A DNA stretch of 64,000 bases from Ochromonas danica (Eukaryota; Sar; Chrysophyceae; Chromulinales; Chromulinaceae), in NCBI GenBank assembly GCA_015146655.1, contig VKHL01000130.1:17580-81579 (forward strand), written 5' to 3'. This document shows positions 11,132 to 49,716 of this stretch, one piece after another (the first letter of the stretch is position 1; every line of letters starts with the position of its first letter). The position numbers and the translations under genes are program-made. The notes under the pieces are model-generated. The model saw only the letters and a list, made by a program, of their open reading frames with translations, did no database searches and was not told the origin of the DNA.

Positions 11132-14100
11132 CTAGGCATGCGCCAACATATGAGCAGCATCGTTGAGTCGCGTACCCCGAGTGTTCAAACTAATCTCTAG
11201 CTGCTTGGAGAAATGTTGGGAAGCTTCGTCGTCCGAGGCACCTACAAGAAGCTTTTCATAGATCCACATGACATCTTTCTCAGCTTGCAATTCGGGCAGA
11301 TTGCAGGGGATGGCAAGGGAGAAGAGCGAGACCAAAAGCATGGAGTGCTCTCTCAGGATGTTATAAACATCACAACAGAGATCGACGAAGGCATGATACT
11401 GCTGTTCACCTCCGATGACACACTTCATAGCAGGTGTGAAGACAAAAGGGGCACGCTCTCTTTTCACGCCTAACTTTGACTTGAAATTGCCTAAAATATG
11501 CCCAAAGTCGATATGGAAGAAGTGGCCAGACTTGGTAATCATGAGGTTATCGTTGTGACGATCTCCCAACCCAAGCACATAGGATGCAACACAATAAGCT
11601 GCCGTGGAGATGGTGAAGTTTTGAACTCGCCTAAAGCCAAACGAGTGTAAGGCCTTGTTAAATTTCGCTCAGAAGGGAAATTGATTCACTCACCTTTCGT
11701 ATTCTTCGTTTCTATTCGCTTCTTCAATACCTTCTTCTTTGATCTGATCTTTGATCCAGTTAGAAATAACCGAGAAGTCGCTCACTGCTCGCATTGCCGC
11801 TCCTAGCTTTCTAGATAACGAACCAGACTTACTGGCACCACCCTTGCTTTTAGTCTGCGAGTCCGTTGCCTCCATCAAAATGCTACCTAAAGTTGTGGCA
11901 TTTAAGACGACCTGCAAAAGGCCGCGCTCATCGCCTGTGGAAATGCAATCATAAAGCATCATTCGCATATCCAATCCTTCTCGTCTCCAAAGATCATTCA
12001 TTACGCGGAGAAGTTGAATAATAAGAGCATCTTGCCGAAGATCGTCACCAACCTTGAGCATGAGCACAACATCTGGACCACCTGATGCATTCTTCAACGT
12101 TAGCCACAAAGGTTTCTTCTTGGATTCCATTACTCGACATCGATCAACGTCGATTCCACAGACCTAAACAAACCACTGTTAAGAAGTCAGCGAGAACAGA
12201 AATACATATCACCTCACCGTTAAATGTGGATTGAGGGGAAGTTTAAATGCCGTTGGCAACACAATTTCCTTTAAGCGATCGCGCAAGATACGTTTGCGAT
12301 CCTCCTTCGTTTCGCCCAATTTGACGGCTTCAGCAACATGCTCTAATCTACGCATGACAAACATTTGATGGCCAAGTTCAATACGATGATGGCCACAGTT
12401 TCGAATGTACACCTATAGGGAGTACAGATCATAAACATTAAACGAGAAAGATCCGTTGCGAGGAAGAAGATTGAAAATACCTGTAGAAGGACAATGTAGC
12501 GTTTGCTCACATCAGCATTGTGAACTTCTGACTGCAACAGCCAATAATAAATGTGTCCGATGAGCTTGTTGTTAGTCAATGCCCGGCGAAGAAGATATCG
12601 AGCCAAGGCAGAATCAACGAATGTCTCAAACTTGAGTTGTTGACACAGCTGTAGCATGTAGAGTGCTAGTTCTTCATCAGGTAGATCTTCCAAGCAGTGA
12701 ACAGCGAACGCGCGGACTTTGGGATCCATAAAACGGCGATCAAGCAACTGCAGAGCTTGGACAGCTGTTGGTTGTTTCCACAGATCGAGGAGATCATAAA
12801 GCTCTTGAACACGCTCCGCTTTGTTCCACCGCACACTCATAACAAACGCAGGGAGCAGTTCGGCTCTATGGAGGATAGAGAAACGAAGGTCCCAAAGCAG
12901 ATCTTTATCTGCTGAGGACAGCATCGACAAGCTGAGCGGATTGAACGAAACTTGAAGAATACGATCCAACTCTAGCTTGTGAGCTTCGGAAAGACTGTCT
13001 TCACCCGCTATCTCATAGTCGATAGGGTCATTTCGAGCTGGCAAACTGTGTACGACTCGAACGCGTGGTGTGCCGCTATCTTCCGCTAGCACTAGATCAG
13101 GCGCAAGCACGAGGTTCACCACGCAAACAGTTCCCTCCTTTCCATTGCTTAAAGTAGTGCTTACAGGAACCTCGACTTCACGTTCTTCTTCTGGAAAGAA
13201 ATACAGTTCCTTCACACAATCCAGACAGCCTTTGAAGTCGTAGAGAGTACAGGCAGACCATCCAAGCGGAATACGGCCAGCAGAAGTTGCTGCAGCAGCA
13301 CCTAATTGGGTAGAACTACTTGTGCGCTTTCGCCGGCAGCCATAAATCTTAATCAGCGCGCGCGTAGCACGAGGGAGATCTCTCACTGCTATGTTGAAAG
13401 ACAGCCGTTCCTGCAAGGAGAGCACCCACTGACCATCATTGTTACGAGCCAATCGACTGGAGGTTCCCCTAGTAGATGTCTTAGGAGCAACTTCAACGGA
13501 AAGAGTAACAGGCTCGCATAGAGGAGTCATAGCCAAGAAGAGTGCAACCTGCACTTCCAGGAAAGCCAAACCCTCCTTAGCCAGTACATCTAAAGTCTTC
13601 GATCCCAATACCAGAGTAGATAGATCAATCTGGAAGTTTGAGTTGACATCCGAAGATTGCAAGAGCATGAGGCCGTCTCCTACGCCTTGACCTAGCGCCT
13701 TTTGTGGTCCACTTCCGCCTGAATGAATGAAGACTTCAGTTCGACCCAACAATAGCTCTGACAGCTGCTCTGCCGCTAACTCCAAAATACGTTGCTGCTC
13801 ACCAGAAAAGCTCTCTTGACTATTATCCAGCCTGTTATTGACCTGCAGCATTCCCATAGCCTCTCCAGTGAGTGGATGACGTAAAGGCACTCCCAACACT
13901 TGTCGTGTGCGGTATCCTGTTCTCCGATCCATGGTTGCGTCAAAGCGAGGGTCTTGATAGGCATCAGGAATATTTACTGGAGCATTGGTTTGAAGCACAG
14001 CTCCAGCTAGTCCTCGTACTGGGAGACGAACACCCTTACTGCGCTCTGAGATCTTAAGAATCATACTCTTTCCATCTTCACTCAAGACGAAGAAGCCCAC

Positions 14101-14952
14101 ACGATCCACTTGCAATGCAATCTTTACCGTCATAACCATTCGACTCATAACTTCATCAGGGGACAATTCGGGAGTGAAAGCGGTGCCTAGTTCATAGAGA
14201 ATGCGTCGCACCTTCGGCGAACTGGCCATTCGATTTATGTCGAGAATATTCTCCACGTGCTTGAAGAGAGAGCGCATCTCATGGTCTTTTGACCAGTCTA
14301 CATCAACGTTCGTATCATTGCCAATCAATGCATTACTTCCACTGATGAGCTCCTCGTAAACTGCACGGCTGAAAGTGAGACAAACGGTGTCGTGGATGGC
14401 TCGGATGGAGGCGGCACGCTTTTCAGACGTCATCAACGCTCTCTCACCAAAGTAACACCCTTCAGTTAAGCGATTGACAATTCGCCCAAGATCTCCTTTC
14501 TTGAGCAAAGCTGGCTGGTCTTGAATGAGGACGTCCACGGCGCCCTTGTTGATGACATAGAAGACGTCTCCATCTTCTCCCTGGCAGAAGACCACGTCGC
14601 CACCTCGATACGACACAACACTGGCCTTTTGCTCAAGCACGCAGAGCTGCTGGTCGCTAAAGTCTGAAAAGGCAGGAACACTGGCAAGAAAGTCCTTGGC
14701 ACGCATCTGCAGCCCCTGCGATGCCACCATGGAAGGATGGCGCGAGGCTTTCTTCGATTTTCTCGGTCCATTGTTGTATAAAGGATTTTCAAAGACAACT
14801 TTGTCATTATTGGTCTTGACATAGAGGGAAAGGCGGGCGGCTTCTGAGAAGAGGGGCATATAGTTTGAGTCGATGATCTCTAGGCAATAAGGATAATCCT
14901 CGCGAACACCCATCTCTCTTAGGCAAGGGGGGAAAATAGTCCAAACGATCAA
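11132..14952 (-). CDS. PI3-kinase (class I/II-like) with N-terminal cyclic-nucleotide-binding and GAF domains
   Basis: Four exons on the minus strand (14952-12481, 12412-12218, 12163-11694, 11630-11132) give 1,211 residues, or 1,198 from the second ATG at 14913. Domain order is as follows. A cyclic-nucleotide-binding domain lies at about 86-205, with phosphate-binding cassette CYFGERALMTSEKRAAS carrying the Glu and Arg that contact cNMP. A GAF domain lies at about 245-400, with an NKFDE-like stretch around RFDATMDRRTGYRTRQVLGVPL. A PI3K C2 domain lies at about 465-600, followed by the PI3K helical domain to about 825. The kinase domain has LMLKVGDDLRQD, catalytic loop GLGDRHNDN, HIDFGH and a basic activation loop FKSKLGVKRERAPF. 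That loop is of the type class I enzymes use for PtdIns(4,5)P2, unlike the Vps34 loop. The protein should phosphorylate phosphoinositides at the 3-position, probably under cyclic-nucleotide control. The domain fusion sits in one exon, so it is not a splicing assumption. Confidence 0.9.
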
Positions 14953-15380
14953 AATTGGCTGCTAGGGGAGAGTGAGTGAATCCAGAAGCCGTCGTCACGA
15001 GTGCTATCGCTCGGCTCTGTGGCAAAGAACGAGAAGAACTGGCTGGAGCAACGATCGAATGACCGCTTTGAACCTGCTAACTATTGCTACGAAGCGGGGG
15101 AAATATCCTCCTTGAGATACGGCAACGGCTCTTTCCGGATCAAAGATGCATTATACCGGATTTGTACTAGATATGCCCTGGAATGTTAACTTACATTTTT
15201 ATAAAAACGATAAGGAGAAATCATTGGCACAAGATAAGGAATGCTGCGGAAAACAAAAGTTATCCGCAATCTCTGATCTTGCCACAGCCATGTCAACGTA
15301 GCGGACTTGATCATATCACAATACAATGCACGACGACACTTGATAGCATCAAAGCTGAAATAATAACTATACACACAAAA
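14953..15380. other. Spacer between the receptor-kinase stop and the PI3K start
   Basis: It should contain the PI3K promoter and 5' leader and the 3' end of the receptor-kinase gene, both on the minus strand. A TTAACTTAC variant of the recurring upstream element lies at 15186-15194. No coding sequence is supported. Confidence 0.4.
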
Positions 15381-18300
15381 CTATGGAATACAACGGAGTT
15401 GCTCCTCAATCATCATTTGCATCTTGGCCGAGGAGATGCGTCTGGATGGCTCAAATGACCAGGCAACATCAAGCTACAACAAGACAGAGGGTTAGGGGGT
15501 TAGGGTTCGGATAACTATATAGTGGTCAAGTAAAACATCAGCTTTACCATGTTGCGTAGCCACACGAGATAGGGATGGTCGGGTAGAGCTTCCATGCCGT
15601 GTATTCGAAGGTCTGGTCGTAAACCATCCTGCAGCAAGTCCACGAATGCCGCCATCGTTAGCTCTTGAAAGCGTGTATCGTCAAAAGGAACGAGGCCCGT
15701 GGCAATCTCAAAGATGACCATGGCCAAGGACCAAACATCTGCAGCTTCAGTAACATTCCGCTCTAAACGGGTAGAGGATGCATCGCCAGCCAAGCCGCTT
15801 GCCAGCATCGTCAGCCTCAACGTCTCGGGACTAGACCAATTGATATTACTAAACAACACCACAGCAATGGAATTATCACATAGGCCATAGCTAATAGCAT
15901 GAATGAAACATATGTCATTATTACCTGGGCAGAGTCTTCCAGCGCGAAGCCACGCCCATGTCTTGTCTCGCTCGCGCTTCACCCAAATCCGCCAATTTTA
16001 TTCGCAGATCCTCAGTCACTATGCCAAATTTAAGATAATTTGACACATCCACGTCAAAATAACTAAGGAAAGAGACTTACCCAAGAAGTTCAAAGACTTG
16101 ATGTCGCAGTGAATGAATCCCTTGGAATGAAGATAAGCTAAGCCAGCACAACAATCGCGCATCATGGCAAGGCGCACACGGACAGGCAACCAACTAGATA
16201 TCGTGCTATTGAGCAAGGAAGATATACGTATTGATTCCTTGTTAACACCGAGTCGACTGCCAAGATCGCTGGGATTATTGGGAGTTGCTGCCTGGGCGAG
16301 AGAGGACAGCAGCGCATTAGTGGTCGCTACGTTACTTTTGTCATTGCCGGTGATAAGCAACAAAGAGCGAGTGTTCCAGCGCCCACTTCGTAAAGAAGCA
16401 CTTTCTTCCAAATGCTTGGCTCTATTCCGTGACAAACAAGCTCAACAACACAACGAAAAACAAGAGTCATGAAATCAAGACACTCACCGAGTAGATTTGG
16501 AATAAGAGAGAGATTTTTGCGATTTCTGCGATTTTTCGGTTTCAATGAGTATTTTGCGTGGACCAAGGCCGAAGCCCATCTCTCTTGTGAGCATCACCGA
16601 GGAGGGAGACATCAGCCGCGCACTTGTTGTGCCTTGCCTGATAGGAAGCCTTGTTGGCTGAAATCCTCGTTTGACAACTTGATCATCAGACACAGCTCTC
16701 TCGTTGCTACGGTTATCCAGGCGAGTGGCGAAGGTTGTGATCGGACTGCTGCTACCATCATCTCTTGAGTGCTGGGGACTTCTGGCCAACGACTGCTTCA
16801 GCAAATTGCATTCTTCATTGCTGGGCCTATTGGTCGGGTAGGAATCTCCTGTCATACTATCGCTCAATAGTGCCTTTCGGGCCGAGAGCAATGGACTAGA
16901 TCGTACGCTACTGATGCCCATCCCAGCGCGCTCCTCCTCCAGCAAACGATAAAAGCTCCCCGCCCCAGCATTGTAGCTCTGATCCTCGATATCCCCTGAA
17001 ACATCGTGGGCGGTCGAATGGTCTCTAAAGTTCCACATTGTCCATCGAATAATACATGGACAACAACAACTGCCCTCTTCTTCATCTTCCGAACGTTGTG
17101 GCATCGCAGAGGTAGTCGTAGCATCCAGATAAGCCATATCCTCAGCAGATATCAAGCCAGCTTGGAAGAGCACGCGCTGCATAGTCTGGTTATCCTTCTT
17201 GGCGTGCAAGAAGTCGAAAAGAGAGCCATGAACGCAGAACTCAGTGACGAGGGAGAGCGCAGGGGGCATGATCGCCACACCCTGACAGCTCACAATGTTC
17301 TCATGCTGCAAGCTGTTGAGAAGCGTCGCTTCTTCACAAAAAGAGATTATTCTCTCCGGAGTGAGTTCCATGCAAAACAAAAACTTTATTGCCACCTGGT
17401 AACATCATGAGGATAGATGAGCACCGCAATCGCATGTAGCAGGCGACGAAGGAGGAGAAAAACCTGTTGTTCATGATAATAACCCTTATATACTCTTGCT
17501 GTGCCTCCGGAAAAGAAGCCCGTCGTGTCCAAGGTCAACTGGCTGAAGGGGATGATCGGCACCACCTTGCGCTCGAATTGGATCACCGAAGAAGTCACCA
17601 GCTTCACGAGATCACGATCCATATCCCAAATACCTAATAAAGGCTCATTTAACTGACCACCTTTGCTGTCACGATACAGTCCTAGACAAGAGCGAGGAGA
17701 CAATTAGCACATCATCTTGATTGGGTGGAGATTGGAGACCATTACCTTGCCAAAAGCGGGAGTCAAAGGCAAAAGCCAGCACAATAAACCAGATTTGTAG
17801 AAACTCCATGACTTCTAAGACGATTTCCACAGTGCACGCAGCGGATCTGCTCTGATGGCCGGTATAAATGAGCAGGCAGCCCATCTGCAGCAAGAGCGAA
17901 GCCAGATTAAGGCCAGAGAAGACGTTGAGAGCTGGACGGCGAGACAAAATGCGTTGTGGTGCGAGAAGGACAGCAACGTAGAAGACGAGTAGTTCAAGGA
18001 GAATGCCACAGGCGGAGATGAGCAACGCCCTGAACCCCACTGTCAAGTAGAGCGAGAGCGGAATGCTGAAGCTTGCTGCCGTCCACAGACTCCCCAACAA
18101 TAAGCTGCGCTTCGCAGATGACAGCCCAATGCTAGGGTGCATGAGGAAGATGCTCACACTCTCAGAAGCGCAACGCAAGACGAACCACTTGCCCAGAGAG
18201 AAGAAGGGATTGTCCGTGAGCAGTCCTAACGCGCTCACCACTCCCACAAGCAGCATCGCCACTATCAAAGTCACGACAGCGCTGAGATACACAGGCAGCA

Positions 18301-18490
18301 TATAGGAAACGATGAAGGAGAAGGGTTTCCATATCTTGCAGACGAGGCGATTGAGCATGGTGAGAATTAGGACAAGGCTGAAGATAATCTCCACCACACC
18401 CACTATGAAATAGGGCAGTGGAGCCCACCCAATATGATCATCACTCGAGCATGTGTGATAGTCACCGAAAGAGATGTCAGGATATGCCAT
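15381..18490 (-). CDS. Seven-transmembrane receptor fused to a TKL-type protein kinase
   Basis: Seven exons (18490-17746, 17681-17464, 17395-16488, 16421-16081, 16018-15925, 15848-15548, 15473-15381) join in frame to 899 residues. After a 25-residue N-terminus, seven hydrophobic helices follow at about 27-46, 57-88, 96-117, 129-152, 155-177, 187-210 and 220-243. The kinase domain then begins: glycine loop SGGTARVYKG, VAIK lysine at about 325, Glu of EEATLL, and hinge TEFCVHGSLFDFL. A Ser-rich insertion of about 300 residues (about 392-695) separates the hinge from helix E. The catalytic loop is HCDIKSLNF at about 728, so Cys replaces the Arg of HRD. The Mg loop is ADLGEA, then WSSPE and ADVWSLAMVIFEI. 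This matches a G-protein-coupled-receptor/kinase fusion of the kind described for oomycete GPCR-bigrams. The ligand is unknown. Confidence 0.85.
15488..15510 (+). repeat. Telomere-like TTAGGG tract inside an intron
   Basis: The sequence GGGTTAGGGGGTTAGGGTT lies inside the last intron (15474-15547) of the receptor-kinase gene. Similar short tracts occur near 5857, 6591 and 7040. They are too short to be chromosome ends and are best called interstitial telomere-like tracts. Confidence 0.7.
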
Positions 18491-18634
18491 CCTTTCTTGA
18501 TCTATCGCTTCTGAGTAAACGAAATCGAACGCCGGATGAATGATAGAGTTAAGGAAATACAGTACCAGTTAAGGAAATACATAAGAGCTCTGGCCTTCTT
18601 CTCTTGGTGAGTAGAAGAGTAAAATAGGATTAGA
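18491..18634. promoter_or_regulatory. 144-bp divergent promoter of receptor-kinase and Prp3 genes
   Basis: The two start codons face away from each other across only 144 bases. The spacer contains a perfect 14-base direct repeat, AGTTAAGGAAATAC, at 18547-18560 and 18567-18580, spaced 20 bases start to start. That is about two helical turns, which would suit paired factor binding. Function is inferred from position only. Confidence 0.5.
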
Positions 18635-26774: not shown

Positions 26775-29628
26775 TCACGAAAACTGTCTTTGAAAGCAAA
26801 GATCGACAGCTTGAAGCAAACTAGTTCGCGCTTGGATAGACAGTAACTGGAAGTCAATCTGCAACGATATCAATGCCCAGAGAACCACACCCATGTCTGC
26901 GGAGCGCAGCTCTGAGTTGATCAAGAGCTCTTCGACTCTCTTGACGATGATATTCTGGAGAGGAATGGACAGATCACGAAAAGAAAGCTTTAGCCTCGCC
27001 ATTGACCACAACGTCCAAGAAAGGTCATGGCTATCCATGTTTCCCAAGACACGAGCAGAGTGATAATATAAGTCACTAATCCATGCGATGGGATACAAGC
27101 GTAAAAGAGAGCCATGCATTGTTCCATTATTAGAAGGGGCTATGGGAGAGGAAGCAGTACTCTCCAGCGGACTTTGCAGGTGAGCTAATGCCCACCAAAC
27201 CATAGCCATGTTTTCCGCGTCCATGCTAGGCAGGCATCGGGGAAAGACCCCTACCACATAGTCCAAGGCAGCTTGAGGAGCATGATTAGTTCGTCTCAGT
27301 AACAAGGCAAGACCGTGGAGAGCAGCAGCTGCATTTTTCCCAAGATAGAGATGACAGTATTCATCGTCAAGCAGCGCTTCCTCACATTTTTGCACTAACG
27401 TGGACAATATGTAGGACATCATCGTGTTCTCAAGAGGATGAATCAAAGGAAGCTGTAATCGTCCAAGGGCTTGCAACAGAGAAGAAAGAAGTCTAAGATC
27501 TGCCGTGGGAGAGCGCAGGTGGTTGATGGTGGATTTCAACAAACACAGGCGCACATCCTCAGGCATATCTTCCCACTTCAATGACTCTTTGCGACCAAGT
27601 CCTTGTAGAATTCCCACTAGCGCAGGCCTACGGAGAGATCTGCACTGCTTTTTTATGGCCTCATAGACGCAATCCAACAAACCATAGCAAGGGCCGGAGG
27701 AGATGAGAGAAAGCTGTAACTCACCCATAGCCCACACAGTACTCCCCAATTCTTGCTCCGTCATAGCTAAGATAGTTGCTTTGACAGATTGCACCAGACT
27801 TGTTAAGGCCGGATAGGGAAGGTCAGAGGCATGAAGACCAGAGCGGGCCAGGCCATGAAGGATCGAACTGCACTCTCTTCCGCTCAGCAATCGTCGATTC
27901 TCCGAAAGGTCTCGTATCAAACGATTGCACAGTGCAGTAGCTTTGTAATTATCTTTCATATAGCGGAGATCAAGGCAGCGCGCTACGGTGGCCAGTGCAG
28001 GACCAGAAAGAGGATCTGGCAGATGTACAATAAGTTCCTCCGCTCGTTGCACTAGACCTTCAGCTGGACGCCTCTCGAACTCGCAAAATGACCAATAAAT
28101 ATTTAACAAGCTTTGCTGCTGCATTGAATCCATACGATTCGCCAGATTATCTGCATCGATAGCAGAGAAAACAACATCCGAGGGAGCTTGCATCTAAAAC
28201 AATCATTTCAATTAGGTGAGTCCAATACATGTACAGCAAAAGGCAGCACACCTTAGCAAAGCCCAACAAGGTATTGGAAACCCCTTGGTTAGTGAGCTGA
28301 CTTTGTCGACCTGAAAGAGCTTTCACTAGAGATGAACAAAACATCGACCAGGGGTCCTGGTCGTCGCTGTTCCACTTCCATTGAAAGTGCATCGTTCCTA
28401 AAGCCCAGAAAACATTTGAAATAGCTTGTCCATCCAGCTTGTATAACAACCCACTTTTATCATTTAGTCCTGTTGCAACAATTTGATCAAAAAGTACCAA
28501 AGGGATGGTCTTCGATGAGAGTGTCAACCTTGCTAATGCATAGAGAGAATTACTAAACCCTTGAGGTGAGCAGTAAGGAAACACTTGAGCCAAGCAAACC
28601 AATAGATCTTGGAGACGAGATGGGGGCAGCGAAGAAGCGGTAGCTCCTAATAGCCCAAGGGAATAAATGATCCGTGTGATTGACAACTCATATGCAGCCT
28701 CGTGACCCTTCACCATCTGCGCGGTTGGCAAGTCTCGCTCAACTCGCTCTTTAAACAAATCATCCAGTTTACTCCATGATGCTTTCATACGGGCTAAACC
28801 TTGCAAAAGATTTGCAACATTCTGGGCAGAAAGTGGTTCTTTGCGCTGAACAAGTGCTTGCAAGAGGGATCGACGTAAAGATAGCGGTACAGCTGACCAT
28901 GAAATAGACACCTTTGACATACTCCAAACAACAATAGAGATCTGCGCTGCTGATAAAAAGGAAATATTTTCACTGAGTAGAGGCCAAAACCGGTTGCGTA
29001 GACTGTCGGGTAGACGCTGCATGTCACTTTCTAGTTTTGCTAGATCATGAAGATTCTGGACGAAATCGCCACCCGAGTCGTGCAAGAAAAGATACCACAG
29101 ACGATCCTGTGCACCAAAAGTGAGATCAGTTGAACTGAAGCCGACCTTGCGCAAAACTGCCAATAATCTCGAGACAGAAACCCCGTTTTTGCCCCCTTTC
29201 TCCACGACCAACGAGACTCTCTCTCGAGTATGGAGAGGTAATCGACCCAATTCTTCCTCTCTTTTTCTGCTCAAAGCATCGAGGAAGATGCATAGTGTGT
29301 GTAATGTTGGGATCTCTCTATCAATGCTCAGTATCATTTTTTCCATGCGATGAAGTTCAATATCAGAGAGATCATCCACACCAGTACCAGAAGATTGAGA
29401 TTGCATTGTCAACAAGATTCCGTCAAGATCATCCAAAACTAAGTCTTCTCCAACCATTGCTTTAGTTTGATCTCTGCAACCAGACGAGGTTGCAGAGAGA
29501 TCTTCGGCTGCATGCAACATGATGCGTCGTACGGAAGCATATTTCTGGTCGACCAAGGTTCTCCAAGGGAAAGATATGTCTATAGAACACAGAACAATCA
29601 AGAATAACAACCCTACAGCACTAAACAT
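26775..29628 (-). CDS. FASTK/OPR-like helical-repeat protein with organelle-type leader
   Basis: Two exons (29628-28252 and 28193-26775) give 931 residues. The leader MFSAVGLLFLIVLCSIDIS is a clear hydrophobic signal sequence followed by FPWRTL. In heterokont algae a signal peptide followed by Phe is the plastid-import pattern, so plastid targeting is an inference. The mature part is built of about 40-residue alpha-helical repeats with recurring WALGxLxL or LxGLARM cores (AISNVFWALGTMHF, STVWAMGELQLS, LLQALGRLQLP, VWWALAHLQSP, TLWSMARLKLS, VVLWALISLQID). Such repeats occur in FASTK/RAP and octotricopeptide-like organellar RNA-binding proteins. No C-terminal RAP domain is seen. An RNA-maturation role in an organelle is likely but unproven. 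Confidence 0.7.
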
Positions 29629-29864
29629 GAGGAAATTGCTCTTGTTGGCAAAAGGTGAGACTTGGGGGTGGGCCCGTTAACTTAAAAAGGCGGCGATCGG
29701 ATTTGTTTTCTTCCCACTGTGGGGCGTGGGAAGAAATGAACTCGTTGGGCGGCGCGGTGTGGTGTGCTCTGCTCTGCTTTTGGTCTGGTGCTGCAGGATC
29801 TGCCACGAGAGTTCCAGTTCGTTCCCTTCCTTTGGCTTCAAAATTGAAAATCGAATCTCCAGCC
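29629..29864. promoter_or_regulatory. Divergent promoter of helical-repeat and HDAC genes
   Basis: It carries TTAACTTAA at 29677-29685. Part of the stretch could be coding if the HDAC starts at the upstream in-frame ATG at 29736. Confidence 0.45.
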
Positions 29865-44829: not shown

Positions 44830-45606
44830 CTATCGATTGTTCTTCCATGGCTGGAACTCTACGATCCTGCAGGGACACACGAAAATGTAAAAGAACTGAC
44901 CAATCACGGCAAAAAATAGCAATGCTTACCGATACACCACATCTGCTTCTTCCACTCGTTCCCTCACCACGCTCGCATCGAGATCTTGTGCCTTCAGGTA
45001 TTCGCAGGTTTTCTCTGTGAGGAAAGTATCGCAGGGGAAGTCTTGGCTGATAATCTGGGTGAGGTGCAGGGTGTGGAAAGAGGGATGAAACAGACTCTCC
45101 TCAAAGAGCTTAGCTCCACCTATCACCACAACTTTCTCCACAAGATCCTTCAAAGGAGGCGCAGAGAGGAGGTTCAGTGCTTCCTCGAAGGACTGCACCA
45201 CATGGAGGTGACTGGCGGGAGAAGGGTGGGTCTTCTCAATAGATGAACTCGTTACGACCACATTGATCCGGCTCTGTAAAGGTCTCCTTGTCAGCGGAAT
45301 ACTCTCCCATGTAACTCTCCCCATGATCACAGCGTTCATTTTCGAGGAGTCCTCTGTTTCAGTGGTGCACTGGCGGAAGTAGGCCATGTCTTGTTTGAGA
45401 TGCTTGTCTTGTACGACCCATGGGACAGTGCCGCGATAACCTATTCCCCATGATGGAGTGACAGCAACCACGGCAGTAATCGGAAGAGGAAAAGGTACAC
45501 GACCAGGAGAAGCCAACATTTCAATAGTTCCGAATCGGTTTTTGTTTTTGGCGGTGAAAAGTGACAAACACGCAACTAATAATAGCAAAACATACCAGAA
45601 GGGCAT
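44830..45606 (-). CDS. Dihydrofolate reductase with N-terminal hydrophobic leader, not fused to thymidylate synthase
   Basis: Two exons (45606-44930 and 44866-44830) give 236 residues, or 247 if an upstream ATG at 45639 is used. The enzyme reduces dihydrofolate with NADPH. DHFR motifs: AVVAVTPSWGIGYRGTVPW, DMAYFRQCT with the acidic substrate-binding Asp, NAVIMGRVTWESIP, RPLQSRINVVVTSS and KVVVIGGAKLFEESL. The C-terminal exon supplies the last strand, RIVEFQPWKNN, and then a stop. Nothing resembling thymidylate synthase follows, although most algae and many protists have a fused DHFR-TS. The leader MPFWYVLLLLVACLSLFTA is a signal peptide or anchor, so the protein probably enters the endomembrane or plastid route. 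Confidence 0.88.
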
Positions 45607-45909
45607 GATGCTTTGAATGCTTTTGTTGAAAGAACACAAGAAGCTGTAGTGGTGATGCCAATGATTCGCTTCGAAGGAAGTTTTACAATGAAGTCAGAGA
45701 TGATTTATCTAAGCAATGTGTTATCTACAGTAGTTGTCTCCTTCTGCTCTACTCAGATCTGTCTCGTAATAATACAGTTGCAATGTATTGATGACAAGAA
45801 GCTCCATAAGGTTATGGATGCAAATGATTAAATCTATTTACTAAAAGCCATCGCCGCCTCGTCTTGAGGGGGTGGAAGAGTATCATGGAGGGAAGGAAGA
45901 AGGTCCTTT
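45607..45909. other. Spacer between protease and DHFR genes
   Basis: Both flanking genes are on the minus strand, so this should hold the DHFR promoter and the protease 3' end. An opposite-strand frame (45613-45831) has no supporting features. Confidence 0.35.
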
Positions 45910-48709: not shown

Positions 48710-49716
48710 TCATACAGAAGCAGCAGGAGAAGTGACGACGACAGGGGCAGCTTCATCTTTATCATCTTTGTCATCATTATCATTATCATCCCCCACAACC
48801 GTCTCTTCGACTGGCGGCTCGGCCAGCAAGGCGGAATATTCCTCTGGAGAGATTGTCGTGAGCGTTAGAGCAAGGAGACGCTGTGCAGAGTCTACTTTTG
48901 TCACACTCGCTTTCACATTGGGACCAAAAAAACGATGGAAACGCTGGAGTCGTTGAGGATCGGACCAGACCTTGTAAGGCGTTTCGAGGGACTGGAAAGT
49001 CAGCACGAAGTCCAACTGACCATTGACAGCACGCTGCGTGCGTAGAGAGACTAGCTTGGGGTATTTGCGTTGAGGTAGTTTCAACCCCAAAGCGTTGAGT
49101 GTGGTGTCCAGATGAGCGTCATCACCATAGCGGTGCCGCGTCACATCTTGGCGAATCTGTCGAAGTGTGGTGGTGGCGTACTGCTCCCATACCTTGTCTC
49201 CATCGACATCAGAGAGTACGGGCACAGGTTTGATCTCAGCATACCATAAGGACAAGCCAATCAGAAAGACTGGGATGCCGTAGACGAAGCCCAAGGATGA
49301 GAACGCGCCATCGGAACCCCCGCTATTCATGAAGTACCCTTTAGCCCACCGACAATGAGAGCCATCGACACCAACAAGAAGGTAAATACTATGATAGAAG
49401 GCTTACCGAAAAATGACGACCCAGTCAGCAGCACACCCAAAGTGAAGACGACGAGAGGCAGGGAAATGCCGCGGATCTCGAAGGGCACAGAGTCTCGAAG
49501 AGGCTTGCTTGCAGGGGAAGAGGGCGAGGGAGAGGAGGAGCTTTGGTCATTGAAGGCGCCCAAGATGGTCTTGGCTTGCCTCCAAGTGGGCGATGGCCTG
49601 GCCAATACAACACCTCGCCTGGACAACAAGGCAGGAGAAAGACGAGCATGCTGCGCAACGAGACTGTTACTCGATGGAACAAAGGCCATCACGAAGAGTA
49701 ATAAAAGGATGGACAT
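48710..49716 (-). CDS. DUF2854 family thylakoid-type membrane protein, plastid-targeted
   Basis: Two exons (49716-49407 and 49338-48710) give 312 residues. The 68-base intron is inferred because it has a GTAAGC donor and restores the frame across what otherwise looks like a frameshift. The leader MSILLLLFVMAFVPSS is a short signal sequence followed by an FVP, like the ASAFAP motif of heterokont plastid preproteins. A Ser/Arg-rich transit-like region follows. The mature part matches DUF2854 of cyanobacteria and plants: a first membrane segment (SLPLVVFTLGVLLTGSSFFGY), then LGFVYGIPVFLIGLSLWYAEIKPVPV, then IRQDVTRHRYGDDAHLDTTLNALGLKLP and FFGPNVKASV. The C-terminus is an acidic Asp/Lys run. Exact function of the family is unknown. 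Presence of the gene suggests a plastid. Confidence 0.87.

Follow-up and report, generated by a model that had tools for sequence, protein, structure and literature searches.

One protist gene, on the minus strand of the window (the whole 64,000-nucleotide stretch of DNA that was analyzed), joins a cyclic-nucleotide-binding (CNB) domain and a GAF domain to a phosphoinositide 3-kinase (PI3K) core, and our analysis confirmed that this fusion is real. Judged from its sequence, the product would be a class I-type PI3K under cyclic-nucleotide control, with the CNB domain as the sensor, the GAF domain as a relay or dimeriser and PIP3 as the probable product. We consider this reading somewhat better than an even guess. 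The features of the gene are listed in Table 1.

Table 1. Features of the CNB-GAF-PI3K gene, with positions in the window
Feature	Residues	Position	Strand	Basis or remark
Whole gene, CNB-GAF-C2-helical-kinase PI3K	1,198 aa	11132..14913	(-)	4 exons
Exon 1	811 codons	12481..14913	(-)	single open frame: N-terminal stretch, CNB, GAF, C2, most of helical domain
Intron 1		12413..12480	(-)	68 bp, GT...AG; shifts frame
Exon 2		12218..12412	(-)	gene model
Intron 2		12164..12217	(-)	54 bp, GT...AG; in-frame stops inside
Exon 3		11694..12163	(-)	gene model
Intron 3		11631..11693	(-)	63 bp, GT...AG; in-frame stops inside
Exon 4		11132..11630	(-)	gene model; stop codon within
CNB domain	100-191	14341..14616	(-)	Pfam PF00027 cNMP_binding, E 6.5e-16
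Phosphate-binding cassette FGERALMTSEKRAAS	155-169 (G156, E157, A159, R166, A167)	14407..14451	(-)	alignment; contacts as given in PMC3080414
GAF domain	252-385	13759..14160	(-)	Pfam PF01590, E 2.6e-14
Degenerate NKFDE region	360-374 (N360 R361 ... F369 ... Q373 Q374)	13792..13836	(-)	alignment to 80 relatives
PI3K C2 domain	478-598	13120..13482	(-)	Pfam PF00792 PI3K_C2, E 1.1e-9
PI3K helical (accessory) domain	662-823	12377..12930	(-)	Pfam PF00613 PI3Ka, E 6.9e-46; across intron 1
PI3K kinase domain	910-1148	11285..12064	(-)	Pfam PF00454 PI3_PI4_kinase, E 1.8e-58; across intron 3
Catalytic loop GLGDRHNDN	1053-1061	11546..11572	(-)	p110beta alignment, motif search
Activation loop KSKLGVKRERAPF	1083-1095	11444..11482	(-)	10/13 identical to p110beta

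Gene Structure and Reading Frame

Since a single 811-codon exon encodes the CNB, GAF and C2 domains together with the greater part of the helical domain, the domain fusion does not depend on splice prediction. The chance of an open run of this length, computed at the local base composition, is about 10^-18.5. The codon-usage signal was positive in all 13 of the 60-codon blocks of the gene's frame, including the linkers between domains. In the two other same-strand frames, each of the 26 blocks was negative. In the antisense frames, one of 39 blocks was weakly positive (0.07). In the search of solved structures, a single p110beta match covers the helical-kinase part and spans the splice points, and the kinase was also matched from the DNA of exons 3 and 4 separately (Pfam E 2e-16 and 1.1e-36). 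It is very improbable that two genes, or a mis-assembly, have been read as one. The gene model was built from genomic DNA; against an artefact stand the stop-free frame, its coding signal in every block and the fact that every domain exceeds its Pfam cut-off.

The earlier note had described a 2,472-base exon carrying the CNB, GAF, C2 and helical domains, with the kinase domain downstream. The content of this exon was as described, except that the helical domain is not complete in it and runs over intron 1. The length required correction: 2,472 bases are counted from a TTG (14952), whereas an ATG is first encountered downstream of the preceding in-frame stop at 14913, which gives a coding part of 2,433 bases. 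In the four-exon model, the kinase Pfam match spans intron 3.

In the upstream region (14914-15520), stops break all three minus-strand frames. Fourteen of the 18 30-codon blocks were negative there, three were near zero (0.02, 0.0 and -0.08; on a strict reading they join the negatives) and one was clearly positive (0.20). The positive block sits in an 89-codon frame (14810-15076) that is out of phase with exon 1. For this frame and six other upstream pieces, Pfam returned nothing with an E value of 1 or below. With broken frames, a mostly negative coding signal and no Pfam match, missed upstream exons that encode a complete Ras-binding domain (RBD) are unlikely. A short additional 5' exon is possible.

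Domain Architecture

In the Pfam search of the 1,198-aa protein, all five domains were above their own curated cut-offs. The CNB and GAF domains, on whose detection by a profile search the earlier note had made its reading depend, are among them. In NCBIfam, the CNB domain was matched only weakly, by families that stayed below the cut-off (e.g., CRP, E 5.1e-5). For the N-terminal 69 residues, the best match among solved structures was adiponectin (E 0.011), which is not convincing.

With E values up to 1 allowed, Pfam did not detect an RBD (PF00794) in the protein or in the seven upstream pieces. Likewise, the p85-binding (adaptor-binding) domain, which belongs to class IA only, was not matched at this threshold in either the protein or the upstream pieces. 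The linker from the GAF domain to the estimated C2 start is about 63 residues, which is shorter than an RBD needs. These results bear out the proposal that the CNB and GAF domains replace the RBD. A large survey assigns the RBD to class I/II PI3Ks (PMC4617754). In PI3KC2alpha, the RBD is described as packed against the kinase N-lobe (PMC8930771), and a domain at the RBD position would therefore be well placed to act on the kinase.

PI3K Core and Its Class

The domains follow the class I order (C2, helical, kinase). The best solved match of the helical and kinase domains was p110beta (E 1.9e-115), with p110 bit scores of 390 for beta, 379 for gamma and 357 for alpha and delta. When the best 60 of the 96 chains passing the cut were compared, all 60 were catalytic subunits of the p110 type, a few of them with no isoform named. 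The kinase motifs GDDLRQD, DRHNDN, HIDFG and KRER are present, and the sequence alignment showed that the catalytic residues are intact. Neither a PX domain nor a second C2 domain, which mark the C-terminus of class II enzymes, was found by Pfam in the whole protein. The best match to p110beta, the KRER activation loop and the intact catalytic residues are in agreement with the class I-like PI3K that had been proposed.

PI(4,5)P2 is probably the substrate and would be converted to PIP3. Alternatively, PI3P or PI(3,4)P2 may be produced instead of PIP3, in which case the enzyme would be linked to cyclic nucleotides but belong to an endomembrane or class II-like type. According to PMC4617754, a supported split between classes I and II is lacking outside unikonts, and PMC3823935 gave, as of 2013, no definite PIP3 evidence in the protists that it names. 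This alternative is quite unlikely, since the activation loop is identical to that of p110beta at 10 of 13 positions, KRER included, and the best 60 of 96 chains are all p110-type.

The protein ends 50 residues past the kinase match, and its C-terminal stretch does not carry the two Trp found there in p110beta. Membrane binding may therefore differ from that of p110beta. The helical-domain positions which we take to be those of human p110alpha E542 and E545 align with Met and Ser, so that the p85 nSH2 contact is seemingly not kept.

CNB Domain

Among solved structures, the CNB domain was best matched by the cGMP-dependent protein kinase 5ezr (E 1.7e-29), presumably that of Plasmodium, and by PKA RII-alpha (E 2.4e-23). 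G156, E157, A159 and R166 correspond, with identical spacing, to G182, E183, A185 and R192 of PKG I, which are sugar-phosphate contacts. All four contact residues (Gly, Glu, Ala and Arg) being kept, the phosphate-binding cassette is complete, in line with the intact look that the earlier note had described. A167 aligns with PKG Thr193 and PKA Ala210; this position, occupied by the cGMP-selecting Thr in PKG and by Ala in PKA, justifies the lean towards cAMP that had been drawn from it. When the PKG Thr at this position was changed to Ala or Val, 27-29 fold more cGMP was needed (PMC3080414). The rule of PKG Thr and PKA Ala is imperfect, because the isolated PKG CNB-A prefers cGMP only two-fold in the same report (PMC3080414). 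We infer from the sequence that the CNB domain is a putative cyclic-nucleotide-binding site, with cAMP more likely than cGMP.

An 11-residue insertion precedes the cassette and counts against cyclic-nucleotide control. The CNB domain might not bind, or might bind without catalytic effect. In that case, the CNB and GAF domains would act in docking or dimerisation and position a PI3K that is constitutive or controlled by other means. GAF domains often dimerise, and the GAF site is altered in this protein; both points favour such modules. CNB domains without ligand are also known: pCNB-C of Plasmodium PKG is described as having a CNB fold without detected cGMP binding (PMC6628679). However, pCNB-C has lost universally conserved residues (PMC6628679), unlike the CNB domain here, in which four sugar-phosphate contacts with canonical spacing would be unexpected for a decayed site. 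We regard this alternative, of a CNB domain without binding or without effect, as unlikely.

GAF Domain

The GAF domain was matched by the GAF domains of PDE5, PDE10, PDE2, CyaB2 and HD-GYP enzymes, the best match being that of an HD-GYP enzyme, and it contains the NIPDAYxDPRFD...TGYRT core. An AlphaFold model was made with 67 relatives (mean pLDDT 78.8, most core blocks near 90). Its best fold match was the cAMP-bound Lcd1 GAF, and cGMP-bound GAFs were also matched. By sequence and fold, the domain thus falls in the PDE/CyaB group, an outcome favoured by the model's alignment, which is composed of PDE/CyaB-type relatives. When CNB-GAF was folded without an alignment, the mean pLDDT was 36, which is too low for use on the CNB domain or the domain arrangement.

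The GAF profile scan of prokaryote contigs confirmed 89 relatives, and 80 of the 89 were kept for the counts. The scan patterns were derived from the query and one of them, NIPDAYQD, lies within the conserved core; therefore, conservation of the core is partly built in. The counts at the NKFDE Asp and Glu and at the pocket Thr/Ser are not favoured by the patterns, and they go against the query. The Asp is kept in 77 of the 80 relatives, the Glu in 74 and the pocket Thr/Ser (Thr293-type) in 79, whereas the domain here has Q373, Q374 and Gly273. Its motif reads N-R-F-Q-Q (N360, R361, F369, Q373 and Q374). In PDE2 GAF-B, cGMP binding was lost when any one of the NKFDE residues was changed to alanine (PMC11977230). 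Small-molecule sensing by the GAF domain, which the earlier note had assumed, was not upheld: the domain is of the cyclic-nucleotide type, but the replaced residues are those of the motif and the pocket. Because the NKFDE motif is degenerate, the GAF domain is probably a relay or dimeriser and not a second cyclic-nucleotide sensor.

A dual sensor, in which for example the CNB domain binds cAMP and the GAF domain binds either cGMP or cAMP, would be in keeping with the PDE5, PDE10, PDE2 and CyaB2 likeness, with the Lcd1 fold and with R271, I288 and D329, which align with CyaB2 Arg291, Ile308 and Asp356 (Asp356 by spacing). An adenylyl/guanylyl cyclase domain was also found in 5 of the 10 prokaryote GAF relatives scanned with Pfam; this superseded a count by patterns that were too strict (4 cyclase-like, 7 HDIGK and 1 GGDEF among the 80 relatives). 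The altered motif and pocket, the alanine results with PDE2 GAF-B and the best sequence match to an HD-GYP enzyme's GAF make two working sensors improbable.

Proposed Mechanism

Under cyclic-nucleotide control with the CNB domain as the sole sensor, binding of a nucleotide, more likely cAMP than cGMP, would close the CNB lid. The change would be transmitted via the CNB-GAF connecting stretch and then the GAF domain to the C2-helical-kinase core, where inhibition would be relieved or, less likely, imposed. The cyclic-nucleotide level would thereby be coupled to 3-phosphoinositide production at the membrane. In its most specific form, the protein may be a cAMP-gated PIP3 synthase, in which the CNB domain and a repurposed GAF domain switch on 3-phosphorylation of PI(4,5)P2 without Ras, a receptor adaptor or a protein kinase between them; this form is tentative and falls a little short of an even chance.

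Known eukaryotic cyclic-nucleotide effectors include PKA, PKG, Epac, channels and Popeye proteins, and several intermediates usually link the PI3K and cyclic-nucleotide pathways. Here, both pathway ends are in one chain, and the RBD, regarded as a general feature of class I/II enzymes, is absent. If the proposal is true, the protein would add another class to these effectors and represent a PI3K branch in which Ras input was lost. An active enzyme would show that a small second messenger can drive a class I core, and it would be a naturally occurring model for PI3K regulation independent of Ras and p85. The existence of PIP3 signalling in such protists would then be directly testable with one purified protein.

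Related Proteins and Known Systems

No cyclic-nucleotide-binding PI3K of such architecture appeared in the literature searched, among the matches listed. The viral contig collection gave no relative in four scans, which used the protein of exon 1 (0 pattern-matching stretches), the last exon of the kinase (7), CNB-GAF (1) and a kinase alignment of two rows (157), nor did the prokaryote contig collection in a scan with the kinase alignment (11 stretches); none of the stretches was confirmed. These scans are uninformative on conservation, since the collections are viral and prokaryotic and poor in eukaryotes.

The class I p110alpha, beta, gamma and delta share the C2-helical-kinase order, the KRER activation loop and the catalytic residues, but neither an adaptor-binding nor a Ras-binding domain was found in the protein here, which has CNB and GAF domains instead. 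The class I/II PI3Ks of ciliates and Entamoeba are alike in the C2-helical-kinase core. The passages of PMC6563779 on Entamoeba PI3Ks report that no p85-binding domain was found, and those of PMC3823935 on Tetrahymena that no PI3K regulatory subunits were found. The described enzymes of this type carry an RBD, in contrast to the gene here; the layout given for the enzymes of amoebozoans, and also for the class I/II protein of bikonts, is RBD-C2-PI3Ka-kinase (PMC4617754).

The regulatory CNB domains of PKG and PKA are similar in sequence and cassette, and the CNB domain lies in cis to the kinase as in PKG. However, PKA and PKG carry two to four CNB domains, whereas one was found here, and the enzyme attached here is a lipid kinase. 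The cyclic-nucleotide GAF domains of PDE and CyaB share the core and fold, but they are tandem, occur in a cyclase or phosphodiesterase and have the NKFDE D and E, while the GAF domain here is single, occurs in a PI3K and has Q at both positions. Oomycetes and other protists have GPCR-PIPK fusions, in which a sensor is likewise joined directly to a phosphoinositide kinase (PMC5784254); those are 7TM receptors with a PIP kinase, whereas the gene here combines a cytosolic CNB domain with a PI3K.

Gene Model and Domain Architecture

The window (64 kb, 47.8% G+C) is eukaryotic in character, with short GT-AG introns. The gene encoding the PI3K with a cyclic-nucleotide-binding (CNB) and a GAF domain possesses three introns of 68, 54, and 63 bp. 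Intron 1 changes the reading frame, and introns 2 and 3 contain in-frame stops. The alignment of the helical-kinase part with p110beta was a single match spanning the splice points. An earlier note placed the start of the first exon at 14952; however, this is a TTG codon, and the first ATG past the in-frame stop is that given in the table.

Exon 1 is a stop-free stretch of 811 codons and, as claimed in the earlier note, holds the CNB, GAF, C2, and helical domains together (nearly all of the helical domain). With a codon-usage model trained on the other long frames of the window, 13 of 13 blocks were positive in the frame of exon 1, and all 26 blocks were negative in the other two frames of the same strand. 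Since the coding signal of this single exon was found in its own frame only (same-strand comparison), the domain fusion is independent of splice prediction.

All five domains were detected with Pfam above the curated cut-offs, including the CNB and GAF domains that had been proposed from the sequence, and the kinase match was also recovered from exons 3 and 4 alone. Neither a Ras-binding domain (RBD) nor a p85-binding domain was detected by Pfam at E up to 1 in the PI3K protein or in seven upstream pieces. Approximately 63 residues separate the GAF match from the estimated C2 start. Because an RBD has a length of roughly 100 residues, it does not fit this gap. The predicted loss of the Ras-binding region is consistent with these results, the CNB and GAF domains being present instead. 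The CNB-GAF-C2-helical-kinase architecture is real and unusual.

Features of the window and domains of the predicted PI3K protein
Feature	Position	Strand	Description
CNB-GAF-PI3K gene	14913 (ATG) to 11132 (stop)	minus	4 exons; 1,198 residues after intron removal
CNB domain	residues 100-191		Pfam E 6.5e-16
GAF domain	residues 252-385		Pfam E 2.6e-14
PI3K C2 domain	residues 478-598		Pfam E 1.1e-9
PI3K helical domain	residues 662-823		Pfam E 6.9e-46
Kinase domain	residues 910-1148		Pfam E 1.8e-58
Possible 7TM-kinase fusion	15518-18568	minus	directly upstream of the PI3K gene
Hydrophobic ORF	17672-18568	minus	about 6-7 hydrophobic segments by eye; without Pfam match
TKL-type kinase pieces	16487-17404 and 16022-16441	minus	after the hydrophobic ORF
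Long ORF	28150-29676	minus	repetitive and helical by eye; without Pfam match
Second long ORF	26778-28193	minus	repetitive and helical by eye
Dihydrofolate reductase ORF	44929-45693	minus	
DUF2854 protein	48713-49402	minus	E 1.3e-39
Open frame of >4,100 codons	51681-63998	plus	continues past the window end; NHL/teneurin-NHL and PT repeats in the first 1,000 residues, PSSQPSS-type repeats further on

Comparison with Known PI3Ks

Philippon et al. (2015) gathered 1,055 catalytic sequences and placed 139 in a tree. According to the available text of that paper, all PI3Ks share the C2, helical, and kinase domains, class I and II enzymes add the RBD, and exactly this set of four domains is given for the enzymes of amoebozoans and for the "Bikonta ancestor of class I/II protein", although single exceptions may escape its text (PMC4617754). 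The class I enzymes of ciliates (PMC3823935) and Entamoeba (PMC6563779) are also described with an RBD. In contrast to these ciliate, Entamoeba, and amoebozoan enzymes, the present PI3K carries CNB and GAF. A PI3K with either domain was not described among the literature matches listed, nor in the available text of PMC3019232, PMC2837644, PMC10543664, PMC12223298, and PMC11718114; the survey of phospholipid genes in Phytophthora by Meijer and Govers (2006), or a database, may mention one. The nearest precedent in such protists for a sensor joined to a phosphoinositide kinase is GPCR-PIPK (PMC5784254).

The Lipid Kinase Part

When the helical-kinase part was compared with solved structures, the scores among the matches listed were 390 bits for p110beta (E 1.9e-115), 379 for p110gamma, and 357 each for p110alpha and p110delta. 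All of the 60 best matches of 96 were p110-type catalytic subunits (any class II or III scores would lie outside these 60), in agreement with the class I-like assignment made previously. The last 165 residues show 48% identity to p110beta, and GDDLRQD, GLGDRHNDN, and HIDFG were all found. In the activation loop (KSKLGVKRERAPF), 10 of 13 residues are identical to those of p110beta. In PI3KC2alpha, this loop binds the lipid headgroup through basic residues that Vps34 lacks (PMC8930771). By its sequence, the lipid kinase is intact-looking.

The two C-terminal Trp of p110beta are not present in the C-terminal stretch. In the helical domain, Met and Ser stand at the positions that we align with E542 and E545 of p110alpha (human numbering). 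These replacements and the missing Trp pair agree with p85-independent control and perhaps with membrane contact of a different kind.

Predicted Ligand Preference of the CNB Domain

The best solved matches of the CNB were cGMP-dependent protein kinases, led by 5ezr (E 1.7e-29, three stretches), presumably the Plasmodium enzyme; Toxoplasma-type PCR12 (2.3e-23) and PKA RII-alpha (2.4e-23) followed. In PKG I, the sugar-phosphate is contacted by G182, E183, A185, and R192 (PMC3080414). Their counterparts, G156, E157, A159, and R166, are all kept with identical spacing, and an 11-residue insertion lies ahead of the phosphate-binding cassette. The cyclic-nucleotide site appears intact, as the earlier note had judged for the cassette.

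Directly after the cassette Arg, PKG has Thr193 and PKA RI-alpha has Ala210, and replacement of Thr193 by Ala or Val raises the cGMP requirement 27-29 fold (PMC3080414). Here the position is A167; the two aligned 5ezr sites have Ser and Thr. The Ala, already pointed out in the earlier note, leans towards cAMP, but it is not decisive because isolated PKG CNB-A prefers cGMP only two-fold (PMC3080414).

The GAF Domain

Against solved sequences, the GAF domain gave 23 matches (E up to 0.5). The best came from an HD-GYP enzyme (its GAF, 1.9e-17); PDE5, CyaB2 adenylyl cyclase (1ykd), 5w10 (Lcd1), PDE10A, and PDE2A came next, in this order. Among the 80 bacterial relatives kept from a search with the GAF, 10 were scanned with Pfam, which detected adenylyl/guanylyl cyclase in five, an HD domain in four, and SpoIIE in one. 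On the basis of these comparator matches and the cyclase and HD domains, the GAF derives from a group linked to cyclic-nucleotide and cyclic-dinucleotide enzymes. A GAF model from 67 bacterial relatives had a confident core, with the cAMP-bound Lcd1 GAF as the top fold match (E 6.5e-11); since these relatives are of the same type as Lcd1, this match is not independent support.

Cyclic-nucleotide GAFs carry the NKFDE motif, which makes no ligand contact, and each single Ala mutant of PDE2 GAF-B lost cGMP binding (PMC11977230). The corresponding residues here are N360, R361, F369, Q373, and Q374; in the relatives, Asp (77/80), Glu (74/80), and Lys or Arg (78/80) are found at the motif positions. 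Thr293 of CyaB2 is a cAMP contact (PMC4411481). Of the 80 relatives, 79 have Thr or Ser at this position, where this GAF has Gly273. R271, I288, and D329 are kept counterparts of CyaB2 Arg291, Ile308, and Asp356 (the last by spacing). Ligand binding by this GAF is in doubt. Thus, of the small-molecule sensing proposed earlier, a GAF domain of the cyclic-nucleotide type stands, whereas its sensor role is doubtful given the altered Q373, Q374, and Gly273.

Proposed Mechanism

All steps beyond the domain anatomy are what we infer. The CNB would bind cAMP, or less likely cGMP. The resulting change may travel along the CNB-GAF segment, by analogy with Plasmodium PKG, in which the last CNB-D helix and the first kinase-domain helix are one helix (PMC6628679). 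The GAF occupies the place held by the RBD in other class I/II enzymes. Since the RBD of PI3KC2alpha contacts the kinase N-lobe (PMC8930771), the GAF at this place could relay the change to the kinase, either on its own or through dimerisation. The expected product would be PIP3, and a connection from cAMP to PIP3 in this protein stands as a good hypothesis.

Other Features in the Window

The DUF2854 gene belongs to a family of cyanobacteria and plastids, which hints that the host is a protist with a plastid. The stramenopile affiliation implied in the earlier note is plausible. Dihydrofolate reductase, for which an ORF is also present, is fused to thymidylate synthase in many protists.
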